In this document: in pieces, positions 6,980 through 41,704 of the stretch | How positions within the stretch are numbered: the first letter of the stretch is position 1 | Layout: each line of letters opens with the position of its first letter | Assembly (NCBI RefSeq): GCF_013343295.1 | Contig: NZ_CP049074.1 | Location: 1,469,501 to 1,533,500, forward strand | DNA: 64,000 nucleotides | Origin: Metallosphaera tengchongensis | Lineage (GTDB): Archaea; Thermoproteota; Thermoprotei_A; Sulfolobales; Sulfolobaceae | Reading direction: 5' to 3' | Program-made: the position numbers and the translations under genes | The notes under the pieces: model-generated | The model's database searches: none | The model's input: only the letters and a program-made list of their open reading frames with translations | Told to the model about the DNA's origin: nothing

Positions 6980-7546
6980 ATGAAGAGCTCCATATTAGCC
7001 CTAATCGCTCTAGTCGCTCTAGGGTCAGGTATTGCAGCGTCCTCGGTAGCTGGGTTCGGTCCCCTAGCATATATATCATATCATATAATAACAGCACAGG
7101 AACAAAATGCCAATATAACTATTATTCCAGCTAACATAAATTTAGGTAATTTAACGCCAGGAATGAAAGGAAATGTTACTGTAAATGCCACAATAACCTT
7201 GAGTAAATCGGATAATTATACGGTGATGTTGCTTCACGTGGAGAAACTAAGAAAAGCGTTCTCGGAGTTTAAGGTAATGATTAGTCTAGGTAATGAGACG
7301 TTTAACGTAAGTCTTGATAAACCTTACCACGTTTTGTACCTGCAGAACGGTACCTATCACGTATACGTTACCATATTCTACAAGGTTTCCAATAATCCTA
7401 AGGGGGATCTAAACGTTAACAACGAGCCCTTACTTATAATACATCCTGGAATAGCCCACGATCACCACGACCATGACCATGATAACGGTAATCATGATAA
7501 CGGTAATCAAGGTAAGGATCAGGATAACGAGAACGAGAGTAGTTGA
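6980..7546 (+). CDS. Exported protein with sequons and a His/Asp-rich C-terminal tail
   Basis: The 188-residue protein begins with a Lys-bearing hydrophobic leader (residues 1-28, ALIALVALGSGIAASSVAG) typical of an archaeal signal peptide or anchor. The middle is a beta-rich extracellular-type domain with many N-X-S/T sequons (NIT, NVT, NAT, NYT, NET, NVS, NGT), consistent with S-layer-side glycosylation. The last 30 residues are a low-complexity HDHHDHDHDNGNHDNGNQ tail of the kind that binds Ni, Zn, Cu or Co. A TATA-like cttttata lies near 6940, so the leader is short. The function is inferred as metal binding or buffering outside the cell; no partner transporter is adjacent. Confidence 0.75.
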   Translation: MKSSILALIALVALGSGIAASSVAGFGPLAYISYHIITAQEQNANITIIPANINLGNLTPGMKGNVTVNATITLSKSDNYTVMLLHVEKLRKAFSEFKVMISLGNETFNVSLDKPYHVLYLQNGTYHVYVTIFYKVSNNPKGDLNVNNEPLLIIHPGIAHDHHDHDHDNGNHDNGNQGKDQDNENESS

Positions 7547-26337: not shown

Positions 26338-28581
26338 ATGAGGAGTTATAAAGCAAACATGGATTTACTGGAGAAGCTCAACGAGGGTCTTAAGGTATTC
26401 AATGCGTCCCTAGCCCACGTATATACGGAGACTGCGCTAGACCCTGAAGTAGGACCTGAAGTGAAGGAAGTTGACCTTGACGAGAGACTGAAGGAAAACC
26501 TAATCGCCTCTGGGATAGAGAGGCTTTACAGGTACCAATGGGAAGCTATGGGCCTGATCCTCAAGGACAAGAACGTTGCCATAATATCTGGGACAGGTAC
26601 TGGAAAGACCGAGGCGTTCCTTATCCCCTTGCTCGAGAAGGCTATGAAAGGAGAAAGGAGTGTCCTCATTTACCCTACCAAAGCCCTGGCGAGGGACCAG
26701 CTAAGCAGGATTAACAACTTCACCCGAAGTCTAGACGTAAGTGTCAACGTCCTGGACGGAGACGTGGATAGGGAAACTAGAAGGAAGATATACGAAGACC
26801 CCCCAGAGGTCCTGATCACTAACCCCGACATGATCCACTTGGGACTATCGTTGTCCCCAGACTTCAGACATCTGATAAGGGGAGCTGAACACTACGTCGT
26901 GGATGAAATGCACGTCTACGAGGGAGTGTTGGGGTCTCACCTGAGGAGAGTCCTAGACAGGATAAGGGAAATAGAAGGGGAAATTCACGTCGTGGGGGCC
27001 AGCGGGACTATCGAGGCTTCCCCCTTCCTACTCAACGAGCTGTTCGGAGTTGAGGGACAGGTGGTGAGAGGGGTGTCCAGGAGAAGGGGGATGGCGATCC
27101 ACTCGCTGGTGAACTCAAACGGGATGAGCAGGTGGACCCTCTCAGCCTACCTTGCAGGTCTTCTGGTCAGGGAGGGGTTAAAGACTCTCGTCTTCGTGGA
27201 CTCTCAACAGATGGCCGAGAGGTTGGCAAAGATAGCTGAGAGGTTTGGAGCAAACCTGGCGGTTCACAGGGCGGGAATACTCAAGGAGGAGAGGGAGGAG
27301 GTGGAGGAGAAGTTGAGGAGCGGGAGTTTGCAGGGTGTGGTCGCTACACCGACGCTGGAGCTCGGTATAGATATTGGATCCCTTGACTCAGTAATAATGG
27401 CTGAGAACCCTCCGAGCTACTCCAAATACGTCCAGAGATCAGGGAGAGCCGGTAGAAGGAATAGGGTCGGTTTCATTTTCACGATCCTAGGGGACAGCCC
27501 AATAGATAGCTACTTTTTGAGGAGACCTCAAGAGTTCTTCTCGAGGAGGCTCACCCCTATAACCTTTGACAACACGAACATGGAGGTCCTCAAGGTCCAC
27601 GCTGCCTCTTACCTCCTGGAGAAGATGAGGCTCAAGAGGGAGGATTTACCCGACCTATGGGTAAAAGCGATGGAGGGGCTGGTACAGGAAGGGGTGGTCT
27701 CAGAGAATCATGGAACCTTCTACGCAACAAGCAGGACTAGGGACTTTGTAAGGTCCACATCACTGAGGAGTTCAGGTCCCGTTGTGGAAGTCAGTGCTGA
27801 CGGGAAGAAGATCGGGGAGAGGGAACTACCAGTTGCACTATATGACTTACACCCCGGGGCTCTCTACTTAGCATCCAAGAGGTCTTACGAGGTGAAGGAA
27901 CTGGACCTGAAGAGTCTAGAGGCTAGAGTAGTCAGGGTGAAGGACGACCCAGGTTACTACACTAAACCGCTCTACATGGTGGATTTAAGGGAATTTACTG
28001 AGGTCGAGGAGAGGAAGGTCTTGGGGCTTCCCGTAAAATATGGGGAGATGACCCTGACAATCTCAGTGATCGGATACGTAATCTACGACGCGTATTCCAG
28101 GAAGGAGAGGACCAGAGGGAGGGTCGAGTACGAGGACCCAATATCCTTTACCTATAAAACAAAGGGGTTGATCATAAAACATCCTGCTGTTGAAGAGTGG
28201 GACCTGATGTCCTCAATGGAGGCCTATCACGCCACGGAGCACGTCCTCATATCTGCTGGAAGAGTTGTGGCCGGTGCCTCTATGACTGACCTGTCAGGAA
28301 TTAGCTACCCATCAGGACACGTGGTGATCTATGACTCTACCATTGGAGGGAGCGGCGTCTCTCGACTGCTTTACCAGAGGCTGGAATCTGCGTATGACAT
28401 AGCCTTGGACATAGTGAAGAACTGCGACTGTGAGGACGGATGTCCGAAGTGTGTCTATGACCCATACTGCGGTAATAACAATAGGGTCTTATCAAGGAGG
28501 AAGTCCATGAGGCTGATCGACCTCGTACTTAAGGGAAATGAAGTAGAAGACGACTCACCTAAAGGGGAAAGCGTGAGGTAG
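26338..28581 (+). CDS. Hrq1-like DEAD/H helicase with MZB (DUF1998) domain
   Basis: The 747-residue superfamily-2 helicase has motif [19 protein letters not shown], motif [12 protein letters not shown], motif III SGTIE, and motifs V and [14 protein letters not shown] and [13 protein letters not shown]. The C-terminal [20 protein letters not shown] supplies four spaced cysteines of the MZB domain typical of Hrq1/YprA-type 3'-5' helicases involved in DNA repair. Length and order fit archaeal members. The ATG at 26338 is the first start after the divergent small gene. All motifs are intact. Confidence 0.9.
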
Positions 28582-28759
28582 TCAGCCCCACATAATACCC
28601 AGCTACTGAGAAGGGGCTCTCCTAGGTCTACGGGTCCTGCCCTTTACCTAAGTTTCATCTACCTTCCGTCAGACGTGTTTAGACATAAATGCTAGTTTGT
28701 AGGGTCAATAGGATAAAGTTAAATTGGCCCCCGGTTACCTCATTGTCTAGGTAGCAAGA

Positions 28760-30148
28760 GTGTGTAGCGTATCTGGAGTACTAATCCTGGACCACTCGAA
28801 ATACGAAGAAATAGAGAGGAAGTTCGTAAAGATACTTACCAAAGCTGAGGATAGGGGTAGGGACAGCTTTGGAGTGGTGACCCTCTCCAGGGATGGGAGA
28901 GTCCACGTAACGAAGTCAATAGGGAGACCTTCCCAGAACTTGGAGAAGTTGTCAGGCTTCGTCAAGGAAGACACCACTGTCATCGTAGCGAACAACAGGG
29001 CTGAACCGACGACGGAGTTCGTGAAGTATAAGGGCGAAAAGGACATCCAACCCTTCGTGGGGAAGAGGTTCATAGTTACGCACAACGGGATAATAGCCAA
29101 CGACCATGAACTGGAGAAGAAGTATGAACTTGAAAGAGTGACCAATATAGATAGTGCAGTCCTACCGCCACTCCTAGACAAGATATGGGACGGCTCCATT
29201 GAAGGTCTGAGGGACGTCCTGGGGAGGGTCAAGGGCAGTTACGCCCTGGTGATCGCAGACAAGGAGAGACCAGATAGACTGTTCCTAGCACAGAACTTTA
29301 AACCCCTTTACATGGCTTACGACTTCGGGTTGGGGGCCCTGTTCTTCAGTTCCCTGGACGACTACTTTCAGGCAGGACCTTTCGATATGGTAAACGTCAG
29401 GAAGCTCGAACCTTACTCCTTAGTTGAGGTAACAAATTCCAAGGAGATGAGAACGCTCAACCTAAGACCGGAACTGAAAAAGAGAGCTCTAGTCATAGCC
29501 AGTGGGGGCCTAGACTCCACCGTAGCAGCGACCAAAATGATAAGGGATGGATATGAGGTGACCCTCCTCCATTTCAACTACAGGCACAAGGCTGAAGAGA
29601 GGGAGAGGGAAGCAGTAAGGAAGATAGCCTCTCGACTTAACGTAGATGTGATTGAGGTCAACACGGACTTGTTCTCCATGATAGGTAACACTACCCTACT
29701 CAAAGGGGGAGGAGAGATAGTCAAGGACCGGAAAGGCCAGGAAGGCGCTGAGTTTGCCCATGAGTGGGTCCCCGCTAGGAACGCCATATTTTTCACCGTA
29801 GCTTTGGCGATAGCAGAAGCGAAGGGTTTCAGTGCCATCGCATCAGGTGTGAACCTGGAGGAAGCAGGTGCATATCCTGACAACGAGATGGAATTCGTGA
29901 GGATGTTTCAGAGGCTCTCTCCTTACGCTGTGGGACCTGACAAAAGGGTTGAGGTCGTTATGCCAGTGGGGAACCTGGTGAAGCATGAGATAGTTAAGTT
30001 AGGGTTACAGATTGGTGCGCCTCTCGACTTAACGTGGAGCTGCTACGAGGGTGGAGATAAGCACTGTGGAAAATGCGGACCGTGTTACATGAGGAAAACT
30101 GCTTTCCAGATCAACGGAGTCAAAGACCCGGTTGAGTACGAATCTTAA
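28760..30148 (+). CDS. gat-queC: GAT-QueC, archaeosine synthase (amidotransferase fused to QueC)
   Basis: The 462-residue protein starts GTG-Cys-Ser-Val-Ser-Gly, placing the class-II glutamine amidotransferase nucleophile at C2, so the GTG start is firmly set. Residues 1-230 are the amidotransferase domain ([19 protein letters not shown]). Residues 240-455 are QueC-like, with the PP-loop ASGGLDST and a C-terminal zinc set [15 protein letters not shown]. In Crenarchaeota this fusion is reported to replace ArcS in converting preQ0 in tRNA position 15 to archaeosine. QueC paralogs making preQ0 are not in the window. The gene stands alone. Confidence 0.9.
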
Positions 30149-30169
30149 TAGTAGCAATTTCCTCGATCC

Positions 30170-30553
30170 TCATTTCCTTATTAAAATAGGGACTATGAAA
30201 ATGGCAATCAATATATTAATTAATACAACCGCTGATATTACAGTGTATAATACGTCCTTATTTTTCATGAAGTCGGCTACCAACAGGGCCACCCTGATTA
30301 CTGGAGTCGCAATAAGAACCATAAGCCCTAGGTATATGAACGATAGACCGTCCAACTTTGGAATCCCAGAGAACACCTTAGTTGGGGTCGTGGTGGAAGT
30401 GTTCACAGGAGATTTCACGCTCCCTATCTGACTAATAGTTAGTCCTTGGCCCCCTCCATGCACAAAGAGTAAAGCGACCCCAGCTACAACTAACGCTATG
30501 CTGAGGACTACCCCGATAATAAGCGAGTAACTAATTACGTCCTCTATCTCCAC
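30170..30553 (-). CDS. DUF1634 membrane protein
   Basis: The 127-residue protein has three membrane helices (about residues 8-32, 72-92 and 102-124) with a soluble loop between the first two. The family (DUF1634) is found beside TauE/SafE exporters in archaea, as here. Its GTG start at 30553 directly follows the TGA of the upstream gene (30554-30556), so the two are co-translated. It is probably an accessory subunit of the exporter; its role is unknown. Confidence 0.8.
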   Translation of the reverse strand: MEIEDVISYSLIIGVVLSIALVVAGVALLFVHGGGQGLTISQIGSVKSPVNTSTTTPTKVFSGIPKLDGLSFIYLGLMVLIATPVIRVALLVADFMKNKDVLYTVISAVVLINILIAIFIVPILIRK

Positions 30554-31417
30554 TCAAAACACCCCTAAACCTCTCAATATCATTTGAATTCCTAGGAAGC
30601 CTAAGATCACCAAAAACACCGCCCTGATTCTCTTATTCTTCAATCTAACCAAAACCCTCGTACCGACCAAGGATCCAACCAGAACGCCTATGGCTGTCGG
30701 GGCAGCTAGGAAGGGCTGGATGTAACCTAAAGCCCAATAGATCCCGCTACCAGTCGCTGCAGTCACTCCTATCATAAAGTTGCTTGTTGTAGTCGTGACC
30801 TTCATGGGTAGGTTCATGGCGTAGTCCATGCCCAATACCTTGAGGGCTCCAGAACCGATCCCCAAGAGCCCGGAGATAAAACCTGCGAAGAACATTACTA
30901 TGAGTCCTAGCCACCACCTCACTCCCCAATATTTTACCGTGGTATTGTTAGCCGGATCGTAATACTCACCGTAAAGGTTCAGTAGCTTAGTGGTCCAATC
31001 TGGAGGGCGGGGAGAGGGAAACTCACCTGACATCTTCTTGAGAGTAGGGTAAATGGAGAAAAGTAGAACTATCCCGAAAACGATGTACACCAAGTATTCT
31101 AGATGAAGAGAGTATATGTACGCAACCGTGAGCGACCCAACTATTGATCCAGTTGTTGTAGCGATTTCAAGGGAGATCCCTATCCTGACGCTGGTTATCC
31201 TCTCCTTTACGTAAGCTGAGGCAGAACCGCTAGATGTAGCTATGGTAGAGATTAGACTTGAACCAGTTGCGTAAATAATTGGTATACCCAAATACAACGT
31301 TAGGATGGGGACTAGGACTGTTCCTCCGCCCAGCCCGGTCAAGGATCCCAAGAAACCTGCCAGAATACTGAATATAAGTATAAGTAAAAAAGTTAGTATT
31401 ACACTCATGATTATCAA
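30554..31417 (-). CDS. TauE/SafE-family anion exporter
   Basis: The 287-residue permease has about eight membrane helices in two repeats. GFLGSLTGLGGGTVLVPIL near the start and GFISGLLGIGSGALKVLGM in the second half are the paired Gly-rich TauE motifs. The family moves sulfite, sulfoacetate or related anions across the membrane; in a sulfur-oxidising archaeon sulfite or thiosulfate is plausible but unproven. A soluble insert near residues 130-165 separates the halves. It forms a two-gene unit with DUF1634. Confidence 0.85.
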   Translation of the reverse strand: MIIMSVILTFLLILIFSILAGFLGSLTGLGGGTVLVPILTLYLGIPIIYATGSSLISTIATSSGSASAYVKERITSVRIGISLEIATTTGSIVGSLTVAYIYSLHLEYLVYIVFGIVLLFSIYPTLKKMSGEFPSPRPPDWTTKLLNLYGEYYDPANNTTVKYWGVRWWLGLIVMFFAGFISGLLGIGSGALKVLGMDYAMNLPMKVTTTTSNFMIGVTAATGSGIYWALGYIQPFLAAPTAIGVLVGSLVGTRVLVRLKNKRIRAVFLVILGFLGIQMILRGLGVF

Positions 31418-31419
31418 AG

Positions 31420-31619
31420 AGAGTAAACTCCGAGTATTTTTAAAATCATCCCATATCAGGTTACTCTAGAAAATATTCAATTTTTATTTTTAAATTTAAA
31501 TCGACGCAAAAGTTTATACAATTATCTCTTTAGCTTAGATATTTTTATTCATAATATTAGAGCATATTGCTCAATGTTTGTTAATATACTTTTATACCCT
31601 ACTATAGACTATATATTGT
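31420..31619. promoter_or_regulatory. Divergent AT-rich promoter region
   Basis: About 200 bases, markedly AT-rich, separate the exporter and the small gene at 31620. TTTATACC near 31590 is a TATA box about 26 bases before that gene's ATG, giving a leaderless mRNA. Overlapping AT-rich repeats (ATATTTTTATTCATAATATT) may bind regulators. Confidence 0.5.
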
Positions 31620-31913
31620 ATGGACGGAATAACAGCCGGTTTTATGAAGTTCAAAGAGCTGGTGAAGGGAGCTAGGGCCTTTAAAATGGAGGACCAGGTG
31701 ACATTCGTAGGTTTTATGAACGCTAGCTGTAGTCAGAAGTCAAAACTCGTTGATGCAGTACTGGACGAAGTTTACAAGTATGGTGAGAGCTTCAACTTAA
31801 CTATTCTCGTCCTTAGCGAGGACAAATCCCGTGAACTGGGGTCGAATCTAGGGGACGATATAACCCAGGAACTGCTCAAGAACCTTCAGAAGGAGGCACG
31901 TCAAAGAGCCTAA
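31620..31913 (+). CDS. Hypothetical small protein (97 residues)
   Basis: This alpha/beta protein is unrecognised (KFKELVKGARAFKMEDQVTF, then NASCSQKSKLVDAVLDEVYK). The lone Cys lies in a segment followed by a helix; the end is highly charged and helical. The start is well supported by a TATA box at leaderless distance. Its 3' end overlaps the convergent PhoU-like gene by 38 bases. Confidence 0.65.
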   Translation: MDGITAGFMKFKELVKGARAFKMEDQVTFVGFMNASCSQKSKLVDAVLDEVYKYGESFNLTILVLSEDKSRELGSNLGDDITQELLKNLQKEARQRA

Positions 31914-32805
31914 CGCTCTTGTTGACAGCGTTGTCCATTATTGCCACACAATATGATCCCATCTTTACTAGTTCCCTCCCGCTTTCCGTCTTAGGGGCAT
32001 CGTCCTCCAATCTCCTGAATCCCTCCCTGATCTTTGCCATGGGTGAGAGGTCCTCCGTCAGGAACATGTTGGTTGACATTACGAACATCTCCCGTAGAAG
32101 CTGAAAGCTGGGGGTGAGTCTAAGTATTTCCTCACCTCTCAACTCCTTGAGGAAGAGGGTAAGATGAGTGATGAACCTTCCCAGATCTCTCATGGTGATT
32201 GCGAAAAGGATCACGTCCTTAGTCTGCATCTTAAAGTTAATCTCATCGTCTCTCTGTACTCCAACAGCTATTTGTCTTATGAGCAACCTGTAGTCCTTGT
32301 TTAGGATGGAGACCCTTGCAAGGAGGTCCTCCCTCATTTCTGGGCTGAAGTTTGACAGCAGAAGCTCCACGTCGCTCAGGATGGAGTTGATCTTGATCAC
32401 AAAGGACTTCATAGACCCGTTTAGGTCACCGTCTACTTTGACGTTTACCTTGAACGAAATACTGTCAAAGGTTTCCGATTCCACCTCAAGACCATAACAT
32501 TGAAGCTGGAGTTCCCTTAACTCTTTCTTAGCCTCCAAGGGAATGACAGAACTGGACTTGACCACAATCCTTTCGACGCCTTGCATATAGTACGTGACGA
32601 TAAGATACTTGGTCGTTTCCAAATTGGTCAACGGTAACTCTTTTTCCAGGGATGGCTTTAAGGGGGGTCTTATTTTCAAGCCGTCGAAAACCTCGTATAC
32701 CTTCAGTTCGCTCTTGACGTCCAAGTTCATCTTCCTTACCCATTGACTAGGTAAGGAGATAATGTAGCTCCCTCCCTTAATTTTCTGAAGCCTTCTAACG
32801 TCCAT
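31876..32805 (-). CDS. AbrB/PhoU-type phosphate-uptake regulator
   Basis: The 309-residue protein joins an N-terminal SpoVT/AbrB DNA-binding domain (residues 1-50; RRLQKIKGGSYIISLPSQWV) to helical PhoU-like domains in the rest (LLSNFSPEMREDLLARVSIL, FKMQTKDVILFAITMRDLGR). Crenarchaeal proteins of this design are taken to regulate phosphate uptake genes; neither phoB nor pst genes are nearby, so the target is unknown. The last codons overlap the convergent small gene. Confidence 0.8.
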   Translation of the reverse strand: MDVRRLQKIKGGSYIISLPSQWVRKMNLDVKSELKVYEVFDGLKIRPPLKPSLEKELPLTNLETTKYLIVTYYMQGVERIVVKSSSVIPLEAKKELRELQLQCYGLEVESETFDSISFKVNVKVDGDLNGSMKSFVIKINSILSDVELLLSNFSPEMREDLLARVSILNKDYRLLIRQIAVGVQRDDEINFKMQTKDVILFAITMRDLGRFITHLTLFLKELRGEEILRLTPSFQLLREMFVMSTNMFLTEDLSPMAKIREGFRRLEDDAPKTESGRELVKMGSYCVAIMDNAVNKSVRLFDVPPSEGS

Positions 32806-32894
32806 AATTCATATGGATAAATAGTTGTTTAAAAGCTTATGATTGGCTAGATAAACAAACATGTTTATTTAAATGAGTATATTTTGCAAACCAG

Positions 32895-33911
32895 TTAGAC
32901 TAGGACACCTTCTGGGTCCAATGCCGATTTTAGGAGATGAAAAGCTTGCCCGAGTGAAGGAAGACAGTCCTTCGTGCAACCCTTCTCCCCATACGCTGTA
33001 TATCCCTTACTCCTCAGTTCCTCCAATTCCTCCCCATTGAAGACTCTAGAGTATCCGGTGCCGTAATATGAAACTATACACTCGCCCTTCAAGCGCCGGG
33101 CTACCTCTATCTCCTTACCCCTTGCTGTCAGTACTGAATTTACCCTGTCTCCTGAGCACTCCTCTACCTCAGCTACCCTGAAGTTCTCAATTGACCTCCT
33201 AACGTAGCTGGAGTGACCTGCGAACCACGCCACGATGGTCTCTCGATCAGCTTTTAACAGGGTTATCCCATGTGCACCCCTTGAAATCACGTCCGCGACC
33301 TGTTCGTACTTAACCTCCACAGGCACTACCTCCTCAGGTAGAGGCACTGTCTTAAGCGTGATCTCCAGGTACCCTCCCAGTTTACCTAGAGATCCAGACA
33401 TAGCTTTCCATATCTTGTAACCAGAAGAGAACTTTGGGTTCTTGCTCCCGGTGTTGATTACCTCACCTTTGCCCGTAACTATCCTAGCCCCCAGTAGCCA
33501 GTCCCTCGGGTATCCATAGAAAAGACTGAAGTGGTCAGGGATGTTCAAGGAGGCGAAGCCCCCGACTGACCCGTGATAGGCAAAGGGTAGCCACATCTGC
33601 TCACGCCTTAGCGCTGCGTTTAGGTCCTTGAATAGTGTACCGGCTCCAACTTTGACGTAGAGGTCAGCCATGGATGCTTCCCTTAACCCAGTGAAGAAGG
33701 ACATAGATAAGTACACGTCAGCTTCTACCCTCTCTCCTATGTGGTGAGTCCCAGTACCGATAAAATGGCCCTTAAGCCCCTCGGAGGAAAGGAGGTGGAT
33801 GACCTCTGAAACTTCCTCCTCGCTACTGGGCTCCACTAAAGCTCTAGGTCTAGAGTCTTCTCTATTCAGCACACGTACCTTGGTGATCTTCTCAAGCTCA
33901 TCGATCCACAT
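32895..33911 (-). CDS. FAD-binding oxidase (GlcE-like)
   Basis: From ATG 33911 the protein is about 338 residues with an FAD-binding PCMH domain: ALVEPSSEEEVSEVIHLLSS, FIGTGTHH and GSVGGFASLNIPDHFSLFYG. It resembles the GlcE subunit of glycolate oxidase. The ATG (MWIDELEKI) is preferred over TTG 33935 because a TATA-like ATTTAAAG on this strand lies about 26 bases upstream. The late Cys residues (GEKGCTKDCLPSLGQ) are unusual for GlcE. It diverges from the GlcD-like gene by fewer than 40 bases and probably works with it. Confidence 0.75.
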   Translation of the reverse strand: MWIDELEKITKVRVLNREDSRPRALVEPSSEEEVSEVIHLLSSEGLKGHFIGTGTHHIGERVEADVYLSMSFFTGLREASMADLYVKVGAGTLFKDLNAALRREQMWLPFAYHGSVGGFASLNIPDHFSLFYGYPRDWLLGARIVTGKGEVINTGSKNPKFSSGYKIWKAMSGSLGKLGGYLEITLKTVPLPEEVVPVEVKYEQVADVISRGAHGITLLKADRETIVAWFAGHSSYVRRSIENFRVAEVEECSGDRVNSVLTARGKEIEVARRLKGECIVSYYGTGYSRVFNGEELEELRSKGYTAYGEKGCTKDCLPSLGQAFHLLKSALDPEGVLV

Positions 33912-33947
33912 ACGCTTTAGTATTGGTGTATCCAAATCTTTAAATTG

Positions 33948-35327
33948 ATGAATATTGTTGACGAGTTGGCTTCCATAGTCGGGGAGAATTGGGTTATTTC
34001 AGGGGAGGACAGGAGACTATACTCCTATGACGGTTTCACCGCAGTGGAGGCCGAGCCCTCTCTTGTAGTCCTCCCTGGAGATGAGGAACAGGCAGTCAAA
34101 GTGATAAGGTTACTCCTAGAAAGGAGGAAGAAGTTTCTCATAAGGGGGACTGGGACTAGTCTAAGCGGGGCCACAGTACCTATTAACAACGAGGTCGTTG
34201 TTTCCATGACCAGATTGAATAGAGTCCATAGGGTAGATGGACTGGAGATCGAGGTTGGCCCTGGTATTGCCAACGTGATGGTGACTAGAAACGCTCCCCC
34301 TCACCTGTTTTACGCTCCAGACCCATCGAGTTACACTGTGTCTTCCATAGGAGGTAACGTCTCCCATGACTCTGGAGGCGTCCATGTCGTAAAGTATGGT
34401 CCTACGTCCAACAGCGTCCTTGGGTTAAGGGTGATTCTCCCCAACGGATCGGTGGAGGACTTGACCGCAGGGCCTTTCCTCTCCCCCCTTCCTATTTTCA
34501 TAGGAGCAGAGGGGACCCTCGGGGCTATCCTAAGGGCTACCTTGAGGTTGTTTCCAAAACCCCAGTCAAAGGTAAGCGTATTCGCTACCTTCAACAGCGT
34601 AAAGGACGCGGGAGACGCGGTGGTGGGAATATTCAGGACCGGAGTAATACCCTCAGCGTTGGAGATGATGGATAAAAACGCCATAAGAGTGGTGGAAAAA
34701 AGTAGATACAAGGCAGGACTACCAGACGTAGAGGCCCTCCTACTCATAGAGTTGGACGGAAGCGAGGACTCGGTTAGGGAACAGGAAAGGTTAGTGCTCA
34801 ACGTAATAAGGAACTTGGGGGGTGAGACTTTACCCTCACAAAATGGTGAGAGGATATGGAACGCCAGGAAGGGGGCCTTCCCAGCGATGGGCGTGGTGTC
34901 CCCTGCCTACCTAACGTTGGACTGTAACGTTCCCAGGGTGGCCCTACCAGAGGTACTTACGGGAATATCCAGGATCTCAGAGACGAAGAGGGTGTTCGTA
35001 GCCAACGTATTTCATGCGGGGGACGGGAACCTTCACCCCCTGATACCTTACGATCCAAACAGACCTGAAAGTCTCAAGCAGGCCTTAGAGGCGAGCTCGG
35101 AAATCATGAAACTTGCCCTATCCCACGGTGGCGTACCATCAGGTGAACACGGGATAGGAATCGAAAAGCTCAAGTTCATGGACCTCTTTTACACAGAGAC
35201 GGAATTGGAGGTATTAAGGAGGGTAAAGAGCGCCTTTGATCCAGAGAACCTCATAAATCCGTGCAAATTACTCGGCGGTTGTACCCCAATAAACGAAGTC
35301 ACGAGGTGGATGTGGGAATGGGACTAG
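33948..35327 (+). CDS. FAD-linked oxidase, GlcD / D-lactate dehydrogenase-like
   Basis: The 459-residue protein has the PCMH FAD domain (VVLPGDEEQAVKVIRLLLER, RGTGTSLSGATVP, GGNVSHDSGG) and the FAD-oxidase C domain with FHAGDGNLHPLIPYDP and GEHGIGIEKL. It probably oxidises glycolate, D-lactate or another 2-hydroxyacid. The ATG at 33948 is used rather than a TTG three bases before it. It overlaps the Fe-S gene by 10 bases and diverges from the GlcE-like gene, together giving the D, E and F functions of the bacterial enzyme. Confidence 0.85.
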   Translation: MNIVDELASIVGENWVISGEDRRLYSYDGFTAVEAEPSLVVLPGDEEQAVKVIRLLLERRKKFLIRGTGTSLSGATVPINNEVVVSMTRLNRVHRVDGLEIEVGPGIANVMVTRNAPPHLFYAPDPSSYTVSSIGGNVSHDSGGVHVVKYGPTSNSVLGLRVILPNGSVEDLTAGPFLSPLPIFIGAEGTLGAILRATLRLFPKPQSKVSVFATFNSVKDAGDAVVGIFRTGVIPSALEMMDKNAIRVVEKSRYKAGLPDVEALLLIELDGSEDSVREQERLVLNVIRNLGGETLPSQNGERIWNARKGAFPAMGVVSPAYLTLDCNVPRVALPEVLTGISRISETKRVFVANVFHAGDGNLHPLIPYDPNRPESLKQALEASSEIMKLALSHGGVPSGEHGIGIEKLKFMDLFYTETELEVLRRVKSAFDPENLINPCKLLGGCTPINEVTRWMWEWD

Positions 35328-36322
35328 AGAGCCAGTGCGTCCACTGTGGTTTCTGCCTGGAGGCTTGTCCTACATACGTTGTGACCAGGTCTGAGGTACA
35401 TTCCCCAAGGGGTAGGATAACTGCCGTAAAGCTCGGTGTTCCCACTGAAGGGATAGAGACCTGCATGTTTTGCAGGAGATGCGAGCTGGCCTGTCCCAGC
35501 GGAGTGGAATACGGAAAGCTCCTCCATAACGTTAGAAGGCCTACACCCCTTAAGTTCGCCGTGAACCTCGTAATGGAGAATCCAGCACTTGCATACAAGA
35601 TAATTAGGTCGGCCAGGGGTACCAACTCCAGGCTCTTGAGCAGAATAAGGACCTTTCTACCTGATCCAAGCGAACCTCTAGAGTATAGAGAGGAGACCCC
35701 AGACCTACTGTTGTTCCCCGGGTGCGTTACGTCAATCTCGTTCAGGAAAACCGTGGAGAACGCATTAAATTTCATTAAGTCGTTAGGTTACAAGGTGGAG
35801 ATAGTCAACGGGTGCTGCGGGCTTTCTCACTATAGTGAGGGGGAGAAAGGGAGAAGCAGTTTGTTGATCGAGAGGCTGAGGTCTAGGTTTCAGGGTAAGA
35901 GAGTAGTCTCCCTCTCAGCGAACTGTTCAGCCCACATGAAGGAAATGGGGCTTGAGATTGAGGACTTCTCCGAGTTCGCTCTGAAGCATATTAAGGAAAA
36001 AAGGGTGGACATTGAGTTAACGGTCCACGATCCGTGCCATGCTAACCTTGTGGGGTTGACCAAGGTTACCAGAGAGGTGTTGAAAAGACTTAACGTAAAG
36101 GTCAGAGAGATGGACGAACCGTCCTTTGAGTGCGGTGCAGGCGGAGGCTATTTCATCTTCCATCCTGAAATAGCTGACCAGGTCATGGAGGAGAAAGCTA
36201 GAAAGGTTAGAAAATCAGGTACTGAGTTGGTCTTGTCAACCAACCCAGTGTGTTCTATAGCCCTGGCCTTTAAGGGACTTAAACCCGTTCATCTAGCCGA
36301 TATCCTGTCCCATGGCAGTTAA
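35318..36322 (+). CDS. Fe-S oxidoreductase, GlcF-like (CCG domains)
   Basis: From ATG 35318 the protein is 334 residues. CVHCGFCLEACP and CMFCRRCELACP give two [4Fe-4S] sets, followed by two CCG-type repeats: FPGCVTSI...NGCCGLSHYSEG and HDPCHANLVG...FECGAGGG. These bind a further cluster in heterodisulfide reductase and GlcF families. It would take electrons from the GlcD-like flavoprotein to quinone. A longer frame from 35261 would overlap the previous gene by 67 bases and add a basic stretch not typical of the family, so 35318 is preferred. Confidence 0.85.
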   Translation: MGLESQCVHCGFCLEACPTYVVTRSEVHSPRGRITAVKLGVPTEGIETCMFCRRCELACPSGVEYGKLLHNVRRPTPLKFAVNLVMENPALAYKIIRSARGTNSRLLSRIRTFLPDPSEPLEYREETPDLLLFPGCVTSISFRKTVENALNFIKSLGYKVEIVNGCCGLSHYSEGEKGRSSLLIERLRSRFQGKRVVSLSANCSAHMKEMGLEIEDFSEFALKHIKEKRVDIELTVHDPCHANLVGLTKVTREVLKRLNVKVREMDEPSFECGAGGGYFIFHPEIADQVMEEKARKVRKSGTELVLSTNPVCSIALAFKGLKPVHLADILSHGS

Positions 36323-36778
36323 GATCTCTAGCCTGGCCCTTTCCCTCTCCCTCTCTAGGTCATACCCGTTCTCTTGCGCAACTTCCAGAACTTCCTTCCC
36401 TATTTCATTGCTCACGTAGATCCTAGGACACTCCCTGGCTTCCCTTAGATCCTGAAGATCTACCCCACTCTCTGAGGCCCTAACGGCAATCCCCCAGTCA
36501 CATCCTATGCAAATCTGCCTCCTGTAAGGAACGGGTAGTGCAAAAAGTTTTGCTTTAGCCATAGCCACCGAACCTGAGGGGAGGAACCACTTTATTGCAT
36601 CTAAGCCTAACCTAAGAAATGCTACCCCTAAATTCTTACCAACAACTGGGTAGTCCCTTTTCATGGATATGAACATGCCCCCTATTTCCTCAGGCCCTAA
36701 TGGTCTTTTCATGACGATCTCAGAGAACGCATTGGCGTTGAAATAAGCCCGGATCACGTCCCTTTCGAGAACATACAT
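36293..36778 (-). CDS. Hypothetical protein (161 residues)
   Basis: This protein is unrecognised. It begins MYVLERDVIRAYFNANAFSE and has a Cys pair in ICIGCDWGIAVRAS near residue 92. A Glu/Arg-rich helix (LERERERARLEIL) lies at the end. A TATA-like GTATATATATT on the minus strand lies upstream. It overlaps the convergent Fe-S gene by 30 bases and diverges from the parA gene across a 120-base AT-rich gap. Confidence 0.6.
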   Translation of the reverse strand: MYVLERDVIRAYFNANAFSEIVMKRPLGPEEIGGMFISMKRDYPVVGKNLGVAFLRLGLDAIKWFLPSGSVAMAKAKLFALPVPYRRQICIGCDWGIAVRASESGVDLQDLREARECPRIYVSNEIGKEVLEVAQENGYDLERERERARLEILTAMGQDIG

Positions 36779-36892
36779 GTTTATACTCTTTAAGTATCTA
36801 ATATATATACATTACGATAGTTTAAGTTATTATTATTAATTTAAGTATTTTTGTAAATGAAATCCATATTATCGTGAATTCTCCTTTTTAAA

Positions 36893-36909
36893 AGTATTCT
36901 GTGAATACT
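36893..36909. promoter_or_regulatory. Palindromic operator candidate at the parA promoter
   Basis: AGTATTC-TGT-GAATACT is a perfect 7-3-7 inverted repeat. It lies between the TATA-like TTTTTAAAAG (36885-36894) and the likely leaderless ATG at 36916, where a bound protein would block polymerase. CTCTAGAC (36909-36915 region) follows and shares the TCTAGAC core I recall for the Sulfolobus SegB binding motif. Confidence 0.5.
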
Positions 36910-36915
36910 CTAGAC

Positions 36916-37575
36916 ATGATTGTAACGGTCATTAATCAGAAGGGAGGAGTAGGGAAGACTACGACTGCTGTAAACCTAGCATACATTATGGCTAAAGACA
37001 AGAACGTAGGTCTTCTGGACATGGATCCAGAAGGGGGAACCTCGTTCTCCTTTGGTATTAGGAGGGATAAGAGGGAGTTTCCCATCGGAGGGAAAAGCGT
37101 CAATATATTTAACGTGGAGGTTTTCCCAGCCCACTTAGGTCTCCTTAAGCTAGAGCTCGGCGGTGAGGTGGAGGATGTGGTCAAGGAGATAAAGGCGTTA
37201 GGAAAGGATTACGACGTGTTAGTAATAGATACTCCGCCTAACCTGGGAACCTTGGCAGTTGCCTCCATGATTGCGGCGGATAAGGTCATATCCCCCGTTA
37301 CTCCCCAACCCTTGGCTATGGAGGCTGTAAGGAACTTAGACTCTAGACTACAGAGTCTAGGGAAATCCGCGTCTGCTTTCACAAACATGTCCAAGAAAGC
37401 TGTAGAGCTTGAGCTAAAGTCTGTCAAGTTCGTGCACGTCGCCATACCGCCGTCTAAACTCTTCTCTGAATCCTCTAGACTTGGAGTACCTGCATCAAGA
37501 TATGAGGAAGTGAGATTCAAGAAGGCTAGGATAGGAAAACTCTACGAGGAACTAGGTAAGGTGGTATTGGAGTGA
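36916..37575 (+). CDS. ParA/SegA-like partition ATPase
   Basis: From ATG 36916 the protein is 219 residues, the size of Sulfolobus SegA. It begins MIVTVINQKGGVGKTTTAVN, the deviant Walker A motif of ParA proteins, then LLDMDPEGG (A') and VLVIDTPPNLGTLA (Walker B). These ATPases drive chromosome or plasmid segregation with a DNA-binding partner. A TATA box about 25 bases upstream supports 36916 rather than GTG 36901. The gene overlaps its partner by four bases (GTGA). This could be the chromosomal segAB locus or a relic of an integrated plasmid. Confidence 0.85.
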   Translation: MIVTVINQKGGVGKTTTAVNLAYIMAKDKNVGLLDMDPEGGTSFSFGIRRDKREFPIGGKSVNIFNVEVFPAHLGLLKLELGGEVEDVVKEIKALGKDYDVLVIDTPPNLGTLAVASMIAADKVISPVTPQPLAMEAVRNLDSRLQSLGKSASAFTNMSKKAVELELKSVKFVHVAIPPSKLFSESSRLGVPASRYEEVRFKKARIGKLYEELGKVVLE

Positions 37576-38315
37576 GCGAACTAGATTTTTTACTTAAGCG
37601 GAAAAAGAAGGATGAACAGAAGAGTGGAGAGAGCGTAGAGAAGAGAACGGAGGGAAGAGTGCAGAGTGGAGAGAGCGTAGAGAAGAGAACGGAGGGAAGA
37701 GTGCAGAGTGGAGAGAGCGTAGAGAAGAGAACGGAGGGAAGAGTGCAGAGTGGAGAGAGCGTAGAGAAGAGAACGGAGGGAAGAGTGCAGAGTGGAGAGA
37801 GCGTAGAGAAGAGAACGGAGGGAAGAGTGCAGAGTGGAGAGAGCGTAGAGAAGAGAACGGAGGGAAGAGTGCAGAGTGGAGAGAGCGTAGAGAAGAGAAC
37901 GGAGGGAAGAGTGCAGAGTGGAGAGAGCGTAGAGAAGAGAACGGAGGGAAGAGTGCAGAGTGGAGAGAGCGTAGAGAGACCAAATATACATGAAGTAGAA
38001 TTAAACGTCGTTACAATCGGAAACGTAAAGCCCGACCTCCCACCTAGGGATGACGCCCAGGAAAATACGGAGACCCCGTCCTCTGGCATAGACGAAGTCG
38101 AGAAGTTAATGGGAAACTTTCTGGATAAGGATCCAAAAATAGGTGTATGGAGCTATCCGAGTTACATGGTCCTTCAATACCTGTTTCATACTAAGCCAGG
38201 GTTCAAAATGAGCAAAATGGCGAAAGACGCATTGGAGATAGGTATGAGACAACTTTTCCCTGATCTTTATTCCAAGGCCGAGAAAATAGCGAAAGATAAG
38301 GGACTACTTAGATAG
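37572..38315 (+). CDS. ParA partner (SegB-like) with eight 14-residue repeats
   Basis: The 247-residue protein starts with GTG overlapping the parA stop. Residues 1-17 are basic. Residues 18-129 are eight identical SGESVEKRTEGRVQ repeats plus a partial ninth, predicted to be a charged flexible or helical linker. Residues 175-247 (SYPSYMVLQYLFHTKPGFKM, SKMAKDALEIGMRQLFPDLY) form a compact helical C-terminal domain that resembles SegB-type DNA-binding ends. It probably binds centromere-like sites and stimulates the ATPase. The repeats are far longer than anything in the 109-residue S. solfataricus SegB. Confidence 0.75.
   Translation: MSELDFLLKRKKKDEQKSGESVEKRTEGRVQSGESVEKRTEGRVQSGESVEKRTEGRVQSGESVEKRTEGRVQSGESVEKRTEGRVQSGESVEKRTEGRVQSGESVEKRTEGRVQSGESVEKRTEGRVQSGESVERPNIHEVELNVVTIGNVKPDLPPRDDAQENTETPSSGIDEVEKLMGNFLDKDPKIGVWSYPSYMVLQYLFHTKPGFKMSKMAKDALEIGMRQLFPDLYSKAEKIAKDKGLLR
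37623..37976. repeat. Eight perfect 42-bp tandem repeats plus partial ninth
   Basis: The unit AGTGGAGAGAGCGTAGAGAA continues with GAGAACGGAGGGAAGAGTGC-AG and is repeated without a single difference eight times (37623-37958), with a ninth truncated at AGTGGAGAGAGCGTAGAG. The strand is almost pure purine. Since the unit is a multiple of three, copy number can change without a frameshift. Confidence 0.95.
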
Positions 38316-38327
38316 ACTGTTCCGCAA

Positions 38328-38369
38328 CTTAACTAATTTTAGATTTCTCTTAACTAATTTTAGATTTCT
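38328..38369. repeat. Two tandem 21-bp repeats after the partition genes
   Basis: CTTAACTAATTTTAGATTTC-T occurs twice back to back (38328-38348 and 38349-38369) with no mismatch, a dozen bases after the stop of the repeat protein gene. The T-rich units could act as a doubled terminator or a binding site. Confidence 0.8.
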
Positions 38370-38387
38370 ACTTGTTTATCCAGCTTC

Positions 38388-38432
38388 AGGCTAGCAGATG
38401 GCCTCCCCTAAAGCGCAAGGCTTATCCTCATG
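38388..38432. repeat. IS-end-like hairpin remnant
   Basis: GGCCTCCCCTAAAGCGCAAG with GCTTATCCTC resembles the CTCCCC...GCGAGG-CTTATCC boxes found at 23936 and 42157. It lies between the partition genes and the convergent SQR gene. Confidence 0.4.
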
Positions 38433-38438
38433 TTATCT

Positions 38439-39509
38439 TTATGGGATATATCCCTTCAGTGACGTCCAGTAAATGTGGGTAAACATCCTCTTCATCCTGT
38501 TAAAGGCTACAGACTCATTGTAAGCCCTGCTTCTCTCAAAGTTCATGGTTATGAAAAGGCCCTTAGTGAAACCGGAGTACACAGCGCACATGGCGCTCCC
38601 GTCATATTTCTTCTCTTCCCCACCTTCCACCTTAGCCAGAATGTTGTTGGCAACTGTCTTTGCCTCATAGTGAGCCTTGGAGCCTGTTTTAGGTGGAACG
38701 ATAATGTTGTTAGCGTCTCCCACTACGAATACGTTATCGTAATTTCTATACCTTAACGTAGTCTTGTCCACAGGAATGAAGCCAGACTGGTCAACTAGTC
38801 CTGAGAACTCTTCGCTGACCTTAACGGGGGCATCTAGAAGGGCGAGGTCGTACTTTACTTTCTCCCCGTCCTCCGATTCTACCTCCTTCTCCTTGGTGTT
38901 AACGCTCCTTATTTTGAACCCCCTCTTTATTTCTATTCCTAGCTCCTTAGCCCTCTTGCCTAATCTCTCAGCCATGGGTCTCTGAATCTCTGGGGGGTTT
39001 GTAACAGGGTTCAATAGGGTGACCTGAGCGTCCTTAAACCTCTCCTTTAATAGGAAGGAGAACTCAAAGGGCGCTGCGGGGCACTTTATAACTCCCCAAT
39101 AGCCTACCACTATCCTCTTTCCATTGAATGAGGACAACTGCTCCTTGAGTTTTTTCCCCTCTTCCAGGGTGTGCCATGAGGGTACGTCAGGTGGATTTTT
39201 GCTTCTCACCCCAGGAGCCAATACAAGGTAGTCGTACTCCAATTTCCTATCCCCGACAAAAACAGTGTGATTATCTACCTCTACTTTGGTAACTTTTCCT
39301 TGAATTAGGCTGGCAGATATTACCTGGTCTACTCTCTTCACTATGGACTCTTCGCTCTCCACTCCAAAAACGTAGTCCACTATGCCAGGTTGGTACAAGT
39401 GGTAAGGAGAGGGGTCTACTACCGTGACATCTAGCTCTCTGCTCCTAAGCCTATTAGCGACAACCGCTCCCCCGTTGCCTCCTCCAACTATAACTACTTT
39501 CTGAACCAT
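38439..39509 (-). CDS. Sulfide:quinone oxidoreductase-like flavoprotein
   Basis: The 356-residue protein has two dinucleotide-binding segments: VVIVGGGNGGAVVANRLRSR for FAD at the start, and DYLVLAPGVRS with FVVGDANNIIVPP later. The membrane-associated SQR/NDH-2 fold is clear. C in VIKCPAAPFEFSFLL and C in AMCAVYSGF fit the redox cysteines of archaeal SQR; a third expected Cys is not evident. It would oxidise sulfide to polysulfide and reduce caldariellaquinone. A TATA box is visible about 25 bases upstream on the minus strand. An NDH-2 function is the alternative. Confidence 0.8.
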   Translation of the reverse strand: MVQKVVIVGGGNGGAVVANRLRSRELDVTVVDPSPYHLYQPGIVDYVFGVESEESIVKRVDQVISASLIQGKVTKVEVDNHTVFVGDRKLEYDYLVLAPGVRSKNPPDVPSWHTLEEGKKLKEQLSSFNGKRIVVGYWGVIKCPAAPFEFSFLLKERFKDAQVTLLNPVTNPPEIQRPMAERLGKRAKELGIEIKRGFKIRSVNTKEKEVESEDGEKVKYDLALLDAPVKVSEEFSGLVDQSGFIPVDKTTLRYRNYDNVFVVGDANNIIVPPKTGSKAHYEAKTVANNILAKVEGGEEKKYDGSAMCAVYSGFTKGLFITMNFERSRAYNESVAFNRMKRMFTHIYWTSLKGYIP

Positions 39510-39567
39510 ATTATCATCGTTTATATTGAAGAAAGAATATTTAAGATAAACTCTGTTTTTCCAAAAA

Positions 39568-39606
39568 CTGACTTCCTCCCCGCCTTAAAGGACTAGGGTT
39601 CCCCTC
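39568..39606 (-). repeat. tnpB right end, copy 2
   Basis: CTGACTTCCTCCCCGCCTTA with AGGACTAGGGTTCCCCTC is the inverted right-end hairpin of the tnpB family. It sits directly after the pseudogene's stop. Confidence 0.7.
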
Positions 39607-40047
39607 ACCGGTTTGGGTTTACGTCTCTGGTGTGGGAGCAGTCGAGAGGCCCAGAGGACCCCCTATAAAGGTCCATGACTGTGACTACGTCACGGTGGTT
39701 TTCATAACCGTAGTTGGGACAACCGAAGAACCTATGACTAACCTCTTCTATCCTTTCCCCACGCTTGGGGCAGTGAGTAGAGGAAGAGGGGCCTGCGTAC
39801 ACAACTTTCAAACCATGCTTTCTAGCTTGCCTCTCAACCCAGTACCGGACATGGGGTACTGCACGAGGTAGAGATTGTCCCTGAACTCTTTTGACAACTT
39901 CTTCACGTCCTTGACCATGTCGTTAAAGTCCTCTGAGAAGATCGCTGAGACGTAAATAGAGTTAGCTACGTCAACAACCCATCTATAGACTTTTCTGGCT
40001 GAGTCCTCCAACATGTTCCTAGCCTTCCTGTGGAAAGCCTCGCCCAC
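39605..40047 (-). pseudogene. tnpB: tnpB pseudogene, copy 2 (C-terminal half)
   Basis: Two frames on the minus strand cover residues from about 238 of TnpB to its end: FHRKARNMLEDSARKV, VSAIFSEDFNDMVK, and after a frameshift AGPSSSTHCPKRGERIEEVS and VTVMDLYRG. The RuvC Glu is preserved in SEDF, but one zinc cysteine is Arg (CPKRG). The N-terminal half is missing. It is inactive. Confidence 0.75.
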
Positions 40048-40099
40048 GAGACGGAAATTGAAGGCATATGAAACCCTTCTCCTGTCCCTTCTCCTTGAG

Positions 40100-40216
40100 C
40101 AGAGAGCTAGATGAGAGGGGTTCTCTGAGCTTCCCCACTGCCCCTTGGATTAGAGTTTACCCAAAATCGATGGGAGAAACCCTCGCCTTCGAGGCGTGGC
40201 GGAAGTCGGCTTGTGA
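40100..40216 (+). repeat. tnpB 3' end fragment in opposite orientation
   Basis: GGGGTTCTCTGAGC..., AAAATCGATGGGAGAAACCC and CTCGCCTTCGAGGCG follow the order found at 23375-23472 on the plus strand. Only the last hundred bases of a copy remain, facing the minus-strand pseudogene, so two elements were joined here or one inverted. Confidence 0.6.
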
Positions 40217-40260
40217 CAAGTAGTTAATATTAGCTGCAAACTAATTGTTTTTTGGTTTTC

Positions 40261-40845
40261 ATGGTTCACTCTAGGGGAGAAAACTTGAGGGAAAAGCCTG
40301 AGCTCGAAGAAAACTCTTCTCCTCAATTTGATGAGATAACCCTGAAGGTACCAACGGCTGTAATAATGGCTGGGGGCAAGGGATCGCGGCTTTCCCCCAT
40401 GAAGCCTGTACTAAAGGTCTGCGGAAGACCAATGATCCAGTGGATCATAGACGTAGCGGAGAAATTCTCCGAGAGGGTTATTGTAGCCACTGTGAGGGGG
40501 CATCCTGCAGAGGAGGAGCTCTCCTTATTGTCCAAGGAGATCATTTACACATCAGGGAAGGGTTACGAAGAGGATGTCGTCGAGGCATTAAGGCAGGTCA
40601 AGTTGCCAGCCCTCGTGCTCTCATGCGACCTTCCCTTCATACCGAGAGAGGCCTTTGAGACCCTATTGAGGAGATGTAGGTCTTCCATTTGTTCCCTGTA
40701 CACGGGATCTGGGTTTGTGGGAATGAGTCTGTGGAATTCTTTGAATTTAAACGACTACGAGACTATTCACTTCCATAAGGATATAATTAACGTGAATACG
40801 ATAGACGAATTGGAGAAAGCTAATAAACTATGCTCTAATTTATAA
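40261..40845 (+). CDS. Nucleotidyltransferase, CobY-like (GTP:adenosylcobinamide-phosphate guanylyltransferase)
   Basis: The 194-residue protein has the GT-A fold signature TAVIMAGGKGSRLSPMKPVL and a LSCDLPFI metal-binding Asp. Length and lack of extra domains fit CobY, which adds GMP to cobinamide phosphate in archaeal cobalamin synthesis. Its first 35 residues are extra and charged. ATG 40261 is preferred to a TTG nine bases before it. The next gene, DUF1614, starts ten bases later and the two are probably co-transcribed. A MobA-like role is possible. Confidence 0.75.
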   Translation: MVHSRGENLREKPELEENSSPQFDEITLKVPTAVIMAGGKGSRLSPMKPVLKVCGRPMIQWIIDVAEKFSERVIVATVRGHPAEEELSLLSKEIIYTSGKGYEEDVVEALRQVKLPALVLSCDLPFIPREAFETLLRRCRSSICSLYTGSGFVGMSLWNSLNLNDYETIHFHKDIINVNTIDELEKANKLCSNL

Positions 40846-40855
40846 TCTGGTTCAG

Positions 40856-41575
40856 TTGAAGAGGATCCTCATTGTCTCCCCAGTTAGGGGAGTCTTCTTT
40901 CCGATCTATCTCGTGCTGGGACTACTCCTTCTCCTCGTCTCCATAAGTTACTTTGAGTACCTTCTAGTGCAGACAGGACTGCCAAAAGAGATTGGGTATG
41001 CCCTAGCAGTGGAGATTTCGTTTCTCAGCTTAGCTACTAGTCCTGTCAACGTGATAGTCAAGGAATTGAGGACACCACCTATTGAGCCAGAGTATGAAGT
41101 GATTTACGTGTTCGGATTTCCGGTTTACTATCGTAGGATTGAGATGCCTACCTACACTCTTCTGGCTTTCAACGTCGGCGGAGCCATAATCCCGGCTTTC
41201 CTGTCGTTAACCCTTCTTTACCTCGTTTCTGAGAAGCTCCTTATTCTCGTCAATGTATTGGTAATAGTCGTTATCTCGAAGTTATTTTCCAAGGTCTCTA
41301 AGGGAGTGGGGGTTGTAATGAACCCTCTTATAGCACCGCTTTTCTCGGTCACGGTAAGTTATCTACTATTTTTCAGGGACCCAATACTGGTTCCAACTTC
41401 AGCATACATAGGTAGCGTCTTAGGGACTCTCATTGGTGCTGACCTCCTAAATTTAAGGAAGATTCTAGAGGCCAGACCCCAGCTCATAAGTGTAGGGGGC
41501 ATGGGGACTTTTGACGGGATATTCATGTCAGGTCTGCTATCGATAGTCCTAGGTCAGTTGCTGATCTCTCTGTAG
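40856..41575 (+). CDS. DUF1614 membrane protein
   Basis: The 239-residue protein has six or seven membrane helices and the DUF1614 features LSLATSPVNVIV and GGMGTFDGIFMSGLLSIVLG. The start is a TTG directly after the CobY-like gene. The family often sits beside cobamide genes in archaea, and the two genes here form an operon; a role in corrinoid or metal handling is inference. Confidence 0.75.
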   Translation: MKRILIVSPVRGVFFPIYLVLGLLLLLVSISYFEYLLVQTGLPKEIGYALAVEISFLSLATSPVNVIVKELRTPPIEPEYEVIYVFGFPVYYRRIEMPTYTLLAFNVGGAIIPAFLSLTLLYLVSEKLLILVNVLVIVVISKLFSKVSKGVGVVMNPLIAPLFSVTVSYLLFFRDPILVPTSAYIGSVLGTLIGADLLNLRKILEARPQLISVGGMGTFDGIFMSGLLSIVLGQLLISL

Positions 41576-41704
41576 TCTAGAGACTAGAGAAGTGTGTGAT
41601 ATTTGGGACCAGGTATTATGGGCTATCCAGGAAGGTGAGTTTCTTCCAAACCTCTGTAGTTGGGAAAAGAGAAGATATTTTTGATATGAAGCTAATTCTA
41701 GGAT

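Follow-up and report, generated by a model that had tools for sequence, protein, structure and literature searches.

The segB gene of the window, by which we mean the whole stretch of 64,000 nucleotides that was analysed, carries a perfect, in-frame array of a 42-bp repeat between the conserved N-terminal peptide of SegB and its ribbon-helix-helix (RHH) DNA-binding domain. At the DNA level, the repeat shows a sub-period of 14 bp (2 x 7), which is not demanded by the encoded protein. The account that combines these observations best, and to which we give about an even chance of being right, is that the array is a repeat-expanded, probably disordered linker of SegB, which grew from DNA resembling SegB-binding sites and now acts as a spacer or tether.

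SegB binds DNA site-specifically and is the partner of SegA, a ParA-like ATPase. Its published site, TCTAGA-S-TCTAGA, consists of two palindromic hexamers 7 bp apart (PMC12284271). In the account that we propose, the repeat unit would descend from SegB-binding DNA inside the gene, namely from tandem S-TCTAGA heptamers with a 7-bp period. Such heptamers would read L-E/D-S-R-V/L and then a stop, in whose place Q or K would now stand; a unit of 42 bp is divisible by 7 and by 14 and keeps the frame. Replication slippage or unequal recombination would then add, remove and homogenise whole in-frame units, and the array of today would serve mainly as a charged, flexible and length-tolerant spacer, or as a multivalent tether, that joins the N-terminal peptide to the DNA-binding domain. 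Linker DNA that carries SegB-binding sites, or descends from them, would, if true, account for the length of the repeat, for its place next to segA and for the separate emergence of an array in a second genus.

The array lies in segB

The identity of the array-bearing gene as segB, the partner of segA, is practically certain. Residues 173-243 of its product match the SegB of structures 7duv and 7dv2 (E 4.4e-26 and 2e-24, respectively), residues 1-18 match the SegB N-terminus, and the gene begins directly downstream of segA with an overlap of 4 bp (the end of segA at 37575 against the start of segB at 37572). It combines an RHH domain related to that of Saccharolobus solfataricus SegB with a placement that overlaps and follows segA. 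The initial annotation had guessed at a role of the locus in segregation, a guess that the gene now bears out. Neither SegB nor SegC was assigned to a family in a Pfam search at E 0.1. The features of the locus are compiled in Table 1.

Table 1. Features of the segAB locus in the window, with strand and main database evidence.
Feature	Positions	Strand	Description	Evidence
segC	36293..36778	-	divergent, upstream of segA	SegC 8wq8, E 1.4e-19
SegB-site-like 13-mer	36902..36914	+	3 mismatches; immediately precedes segA, where S. solfataricus has its site 1	
segA	36919..37575	+	ParA-like Walker ATPase	7dut, E 9.9e-96 over 218 aa; Pfam AAA_31, E 2e-28
Run of four SegB-site-like heptamers inside segA	37335..37361	+	encodes LDSRLQSLG; 13-mers with 2, 2 and 3 mismatches to TCTAGASTCTAGA	
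segB	37572..38315	+	247 aa from a GTG start; SELDFLLKRKKK at the N-terminus, then the repeat linker and a C-terminal RHH domain	open reading frame and SegB structure matches
42-bp repeat array	37621..37977	+	8.5 exact copies, 14 aa SGESVEKRTEGRVQ; imperfect 14-bp (69%) and 7-bp (25/42) sub-period	
Non-repeated part of SegB linker	37978..38087	+	diverging fast	sequence; comparison of relatives
SegB RHH DNA-binding domain	38088..38312	+	residues 173-247	structure match; homologues in family genomes

The array extends over 357 bp with an exact 42-bp period and zero mismatches (TRF score 714 in the 64-kb window), and such a perfect array cannot be the work of chance. All its units stand in one open frame in which the peptide SGESVEKRTEGRVQ is repeated, and the third codon positions are invariant as well. 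On the plus strand, 306 of the 357 bases (86%) are A or G. The initial annotation had described identical 42-bp repeats on a purine-rich strand within a coding region, without differences between copies even at third codon positions, and our analysis of the complete units confirms this description, except that the array begins two bases further left and ends one base further right than the bounds it gave (37623-37976).

Several other open frames run across the array, namely three on the minus strand (187, 133 and 129 aa) and a second one on the plus strand, and all were rejected as genes; they exist because the unit is free of stops and its length is a multiple of three. A second repeat-bearing SegB in the same genome was likewise rejected, the weak second match being the same array read out of frame with eight stops.

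Distribution and turnover of the array among relatives

Using residues 165-247 as the query, we found a SegB homologue in 30 of the 31 genomes of the family, the single miss being a genome that is 79% complete, and in 30 of the 214 genomes of the order, all 30 of them within the same family. No SegB was detected among 72,556 plasmid records. All 30 segB genes were read for arrays and linkers, and six of them contain a perfect array. Five of these belong to the window's genus, from which six genomes were available, and have 42-bp units in 8.5 (window genome), 11.0 (G182), 12.7 (G183), 3.9 (G184) and 10.9 copies (G185); these arrays are orthologous, and all set in at an identical distance behind the N-terminal peptide. 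The remaining one, in the SegB of a genome from another genus (G180), consists of 13.25 perfect copies of a 36-bp unit. No perfect array is present in the segB of G186, which completes the six genomes of the genus. As a separate observation, the linker of this SegB contains seven SegB-like sites (at most three mismatches), against 1.7 to 2.8 expected.

A tree of SegA together with the SegB C-terminus was built with 29 rows, G197 being left out for its cut-off contig. The five congeneric genomes with arrays form one clade, G186 is its sister, and G180 stands apart on a long branch, a topology that forces two changes. The 36-bp array of G180 arose independently of the 42-bp arrays of Metallosphaera.

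Within any congeneric genome, complete units show no differences at all, while between genomes 2 to 22 of the 42 bases differ. Because orthologues in the same register are found in five of the six genomes, perfect within each and different between them, the sequences indicate that the array is old and continually homogenised, that is, that it undergoes concerted evolution by repeated expansion, contraction and homogenisation. The initial annotation had offered a choice between a very recent expansion and constant homogenisation; the latter stands, whereas a very recent first expansion is contradicted by the orthologous arrays, and what is recent would be the turnover.

Perfect tandem units, as in in-frame minisatellites and the phase-variable repeats of contingency loci, are likely to expand and contract. 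The copy number does vary between species, from 3.9 to 12.7 with one genome per species compared. The idea of phase tuning, also put forward at first, found no support, as the 42-bp unit lies in an uninterrupted frame. Since 42 is a multiple of three, a change in copy number alters the length of the protein and never switches its frame, and we rejected frame-switching phase variation of the contingency-locus type for this reason. The array thus differs from phase-variable repeats in its unit length, in belonging to an intracellular segregation protein and in the lack of on/off switching.

A 7-bp rhythm in the DNA of the repeat

The repeat finder reported, besides the 42-bp period, the 14-bp sub-period given in Table 1. 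We compared the autocorrelation of the window unit with synonymous recodings, for which the codon usage was taken from the surrounding 60 to 64 kb. At a lag of 14, 29 of the 42 positions are identical against 17 expected, a value reached by none of 3000 recodings, and at a lag of 7 the identity is 25 of 42 against 14 expected (p about 0.001). None of 422 purine-rich coding windows attained this lag-7 identity. The related units of G183, G184 and G185 show the 7-bp lag as well (p 0.002 to 0.03). The units of G182 and G180 have no significant 7-bp period, which speaks against our combined account. It should be added that lags 2, 5, 9, 12, 16 and 19 are raised in the window unit along with 7 and 14, because the heptamers are made of alternating A and G; part of the period signal is thus this alternation.

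The heptamers of the window unit, viewed as a possible heptad-type parS, agree weakly with the SegB consensus, at 23 of 42 positions; among 569 polar coding windows, 1.9% agree as well as this. A tandem SegB site leaves one of its three frames without an immediate stop, and the change of TAG to CAG gives LESRVQS; the repeat peptide fits the translated heptamers twice per unit, with 8 of 14 residues in the window (permutation p 0.003), 9 of 14 in G182, 10 of 14 in G183-G185 and 6 of 12 in G180 (p 0.035).

SegB-like sites in the linkers and around segAB

The 24 segB linkers without an array, which include close pairs and are therefore not independent, contain 19 sites with at most three mismatches, compared to 9.15 in synonymous-codon shuffles (p 0.005, the floor for the 200 shuffles made within each linker). 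When 180 composition-matched palindromes were ranked by the same measure, the true SegB motif came first. The excess is confined to the eight long linkers (18 sites against 7.8), the 16 short ones having 1 against 1.4. In a breakdown by region, the 3' half of segA shows an enrichment of sites too, and none was seen in the SegB C-terminal domain or in the first 400 bases of segA. The heptamer run inside segA is kept at the same place in relatives, and NLDSRLQSLGK or a similar peptide is encoded there in nearly all 29 segA genes.

For perfect arrays, codon permutation within the linker is uninformative (16 against 18.1, p 0.77), and recoding at the level of the unit, again with the codon usage of the surrounding 60 to 64 kb, was used there. 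By this measure G180 gives the clearest result: each of its 13 units has an 11-of-13 match, TCTAGAGTCCACA, with a unit-level p of 0.02 and rank 1 of 180 motifs. It is the only array with a consensus site of the kind expected of a heptad-type parS (two mismatches). The best match of the window unit covers 9 of 13 positions (four mismatches; p 0.13, rank 8 of 180) and falls short of the consensus, and this weak match is a second point against the combined account. The whole linker of the window has eight sites against 2.05 expected at up to four mismatches (p 0.006) and none at up to three. The units of G183-G185 match at chance level (p about 0.5), and their array linkers have 0 to 2 sites against 1.0 to 3.7 expected. 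The expected values for these array linkers come from a first synonymous null, in which segA and the C-terminal part of segB alone supplied the codon usage.

Taken together, we favour an origin of the array from SegB sites, as judged from these sequence comparisons; for present binding by SegB, the window array is a candidate. The proposal that the DNA of the segB linker carries, or descends from, SegB-binding sites offers an alternative to the published beta-helix discussed below, and bears on the open question of how segregation complexes are built in archaea that have no bacterial-type centromeres.

A possible present role of the array DNA as a SegB target

The same observations lend themselves to a bolder reading, in which SegB binds the DNA of the array today, so that one sequence would both encode the protein's linker and form part of its target. 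On half-sites every 7 bp, SegB dimers would bind next to one another, and the segregation complex would nucleate at segAB; the protein repeat would be a by-product, its 14 residues resulting from the need to read 7-bp sites in threes. In that case, the segB product would assemble on its own coding sequence, and the copy number would tune the strength of the centromere and the length of the protein together. We regard such a coding centromere as unlikely, although it is the alternative that survives best.

The precedent is the plasmid pSM19035, whose RHH protein omega binds contiguous 7-bp repeats, at least four of which are needed for the full activation of its ATPase partner (PMC9499535). The two systems share a ParA-like ATPase with an RHH partner, contiguous 7-bp repeats would be common to their targets, and both SegB and omega have been described as wrapping DNA in a left-handed superhelix (PMC9178275). 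The parS of pSM19035 is, however, located at promoters and has a clear consensus (PMC9499535), whereas the window array is coding, has degenerate heptamers and is a candidate target only.

The units of G180 and the site excess in the eight long linkers fit present binding, and so does the clustering of sites around segAB, where 9 of the 76 SegB-site-like 13-mers of the genome with at most two mismatches, three of them with a single mismatch, lie within about 14 kb (27908-41588). On the scale of the whole genome, however, these 76 sites are no excess over the 84 found with the reversed motif as control. The non-significant match of the window unit and the lack of a site excess in the array linkers of G183-G185 also weigh against binding. 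In favour of binding, no 13-mer with five or fewer mismatches is present in S. solfataricus at -59, where the centre of bound site 2 has been published to lie, so weak bound sites can be very degenerate.

Codon divergence provides a further line of evidence. Compared with neighbouring genes, the units of G183 and G185 differ synonymously at 0 of 13 codons against 6.75 expected (P 4.5e-5), those of G184 and G183 at 1 of 13 against 6.4 (P 0.0013) and those of G184 and G185 at 2 of 14 against 5.8 (P 0.026), the three pairs not being mutually independent. This high conservation of codons would be expected of a DNA target and is left unexplained by a pure protein spacer, and thus also counts against our combined account. 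It does not extend to the window, since the divergence is not reduced in any pair that includes the window genome (P 0.14 to 0.92). Conversion of the array between species could also mimic codon constraint among G183-G185. The codons just before the array have diverged, with 4 to 6 of 11 to 13 differing, so such a transfer could only have involved the array itself.

Passenger, fold or artefact

A neutral passenger, meaning a part of a length-tolerant linker that is prone to slippage and functionless in itself, would account for the wide range of copy numbers in close relatives, for the lack of a perfect array in G186 and for the free divergence of the linker beside the array. We nonetheless consider it rather improbable: the array persists in five of the six genomes of the genus, a separate lineage (G180) made a similar one in the same place, and in G183-G185 both the peptide and the codons of the unit are much better conserved than the linker beside them, and better than the neighbouring genes.

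The protein repeat itself has a published interpretation. M. hakonensis SegB has 300 residues with 12.5 identical 14-aa repeats, for which a beta-helix was predicted from AlphaFold2 with high confidence (PMC12284271), and the repeats are read there as an ordered beta-solenoid that attaches SegB to a membrane or scaffold. For the window SegB, AlphaFold2 run on the single sequence also draws strands across the array, with pLDDT mostly 60-75 and a mean of 58.6. In the same single-sequence setting, a meaningless out-of-frame reading of the array obtained a higher pLDDT of 93.3, though as one helix and not as a solenoid, and AlphaFold2 has been reported to give confident but unrealistic beta-solenoids from perfect repeats (PMC11795689). 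In addition, the published dimer models disagree with one another (PMC12284271). A charge-hydropathy boundary places every one of the 30 linkers, with repeats or without, among disordered sequences and each of the 30 C-terminal domains among ordered ones, and the N-terminus of S. solfataricus SegB is described as unstructured (PMC12284271). For these reasons an ordered beta-helix seems doubtful to us, and we lean towards a flexible spacer, as the composition of the linkers suggests. The result also advises caution when the fold of a perfect repeat is deduced from an AlphaFold2 model.

That the array or its count was made by the assembler, perfect repeats being hard for short reads, is very improbable, since independent congeneric genomes carry orthologous arrays with unit sequences of their own and such arrays are reported in PMC12284271. 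The count of 8.5 copies is that of the window genome's assembly, a single contig of 2,176,897 bp, and is less certain than the array itself.

Relation to published SegB proteins

Kabli et al. (2025) described direct tandem repeats of 14 aa in Metallosphaera SegB, whose sequence and number differ by species, and called their function unknown (PMC12284271). The array of the window agrees with theirs in gene, genus-level group, repeat length and position between the N-terminus and the RHH domain, and the SegB of G183 (300 aa, 12.7 copies) fits the M. hakonensis protein of that study. The S. solfataricus SegB of 7duv and 7dv2 has the N-terminal peptide and the RHH domain in common with the window SegB and differs in its length of 109 aa, its short linker and its lack of repeats.

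As far as the main text of PMC12284271 goes, the repeat is treated at the protein level only, with no DNA-level role, no synonymous tests and no 36-bp array. The protein repeat is thus already published for the genus, and what the present work adds to that text is the 14-bp sub-period, the proposed link between the 7/14-bp period and heptamers of the SegB site, the tests against synonymous recoding and, in G180, the array of 36-bp units. Our search of the SegB literature gave no other title pointing to repeats, and a broad search for centromeres inside coding sequences gave nothing on point.

Other features of the window

Directly after the stop of segB, at 38328-38369, a 21-bp AT-rich sequence, CTTAACTAATTTTAGATTTCT, is exactly duplicated head to tail. 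A further exact short tandem repeat, of 2.1 copies of 15 bp, is found at 7478-7509. On the plus strand at 28760-30148, the window encodes a protein that we take to resemble a class II glutamine amidotransferase fused to a QueC-like domain.
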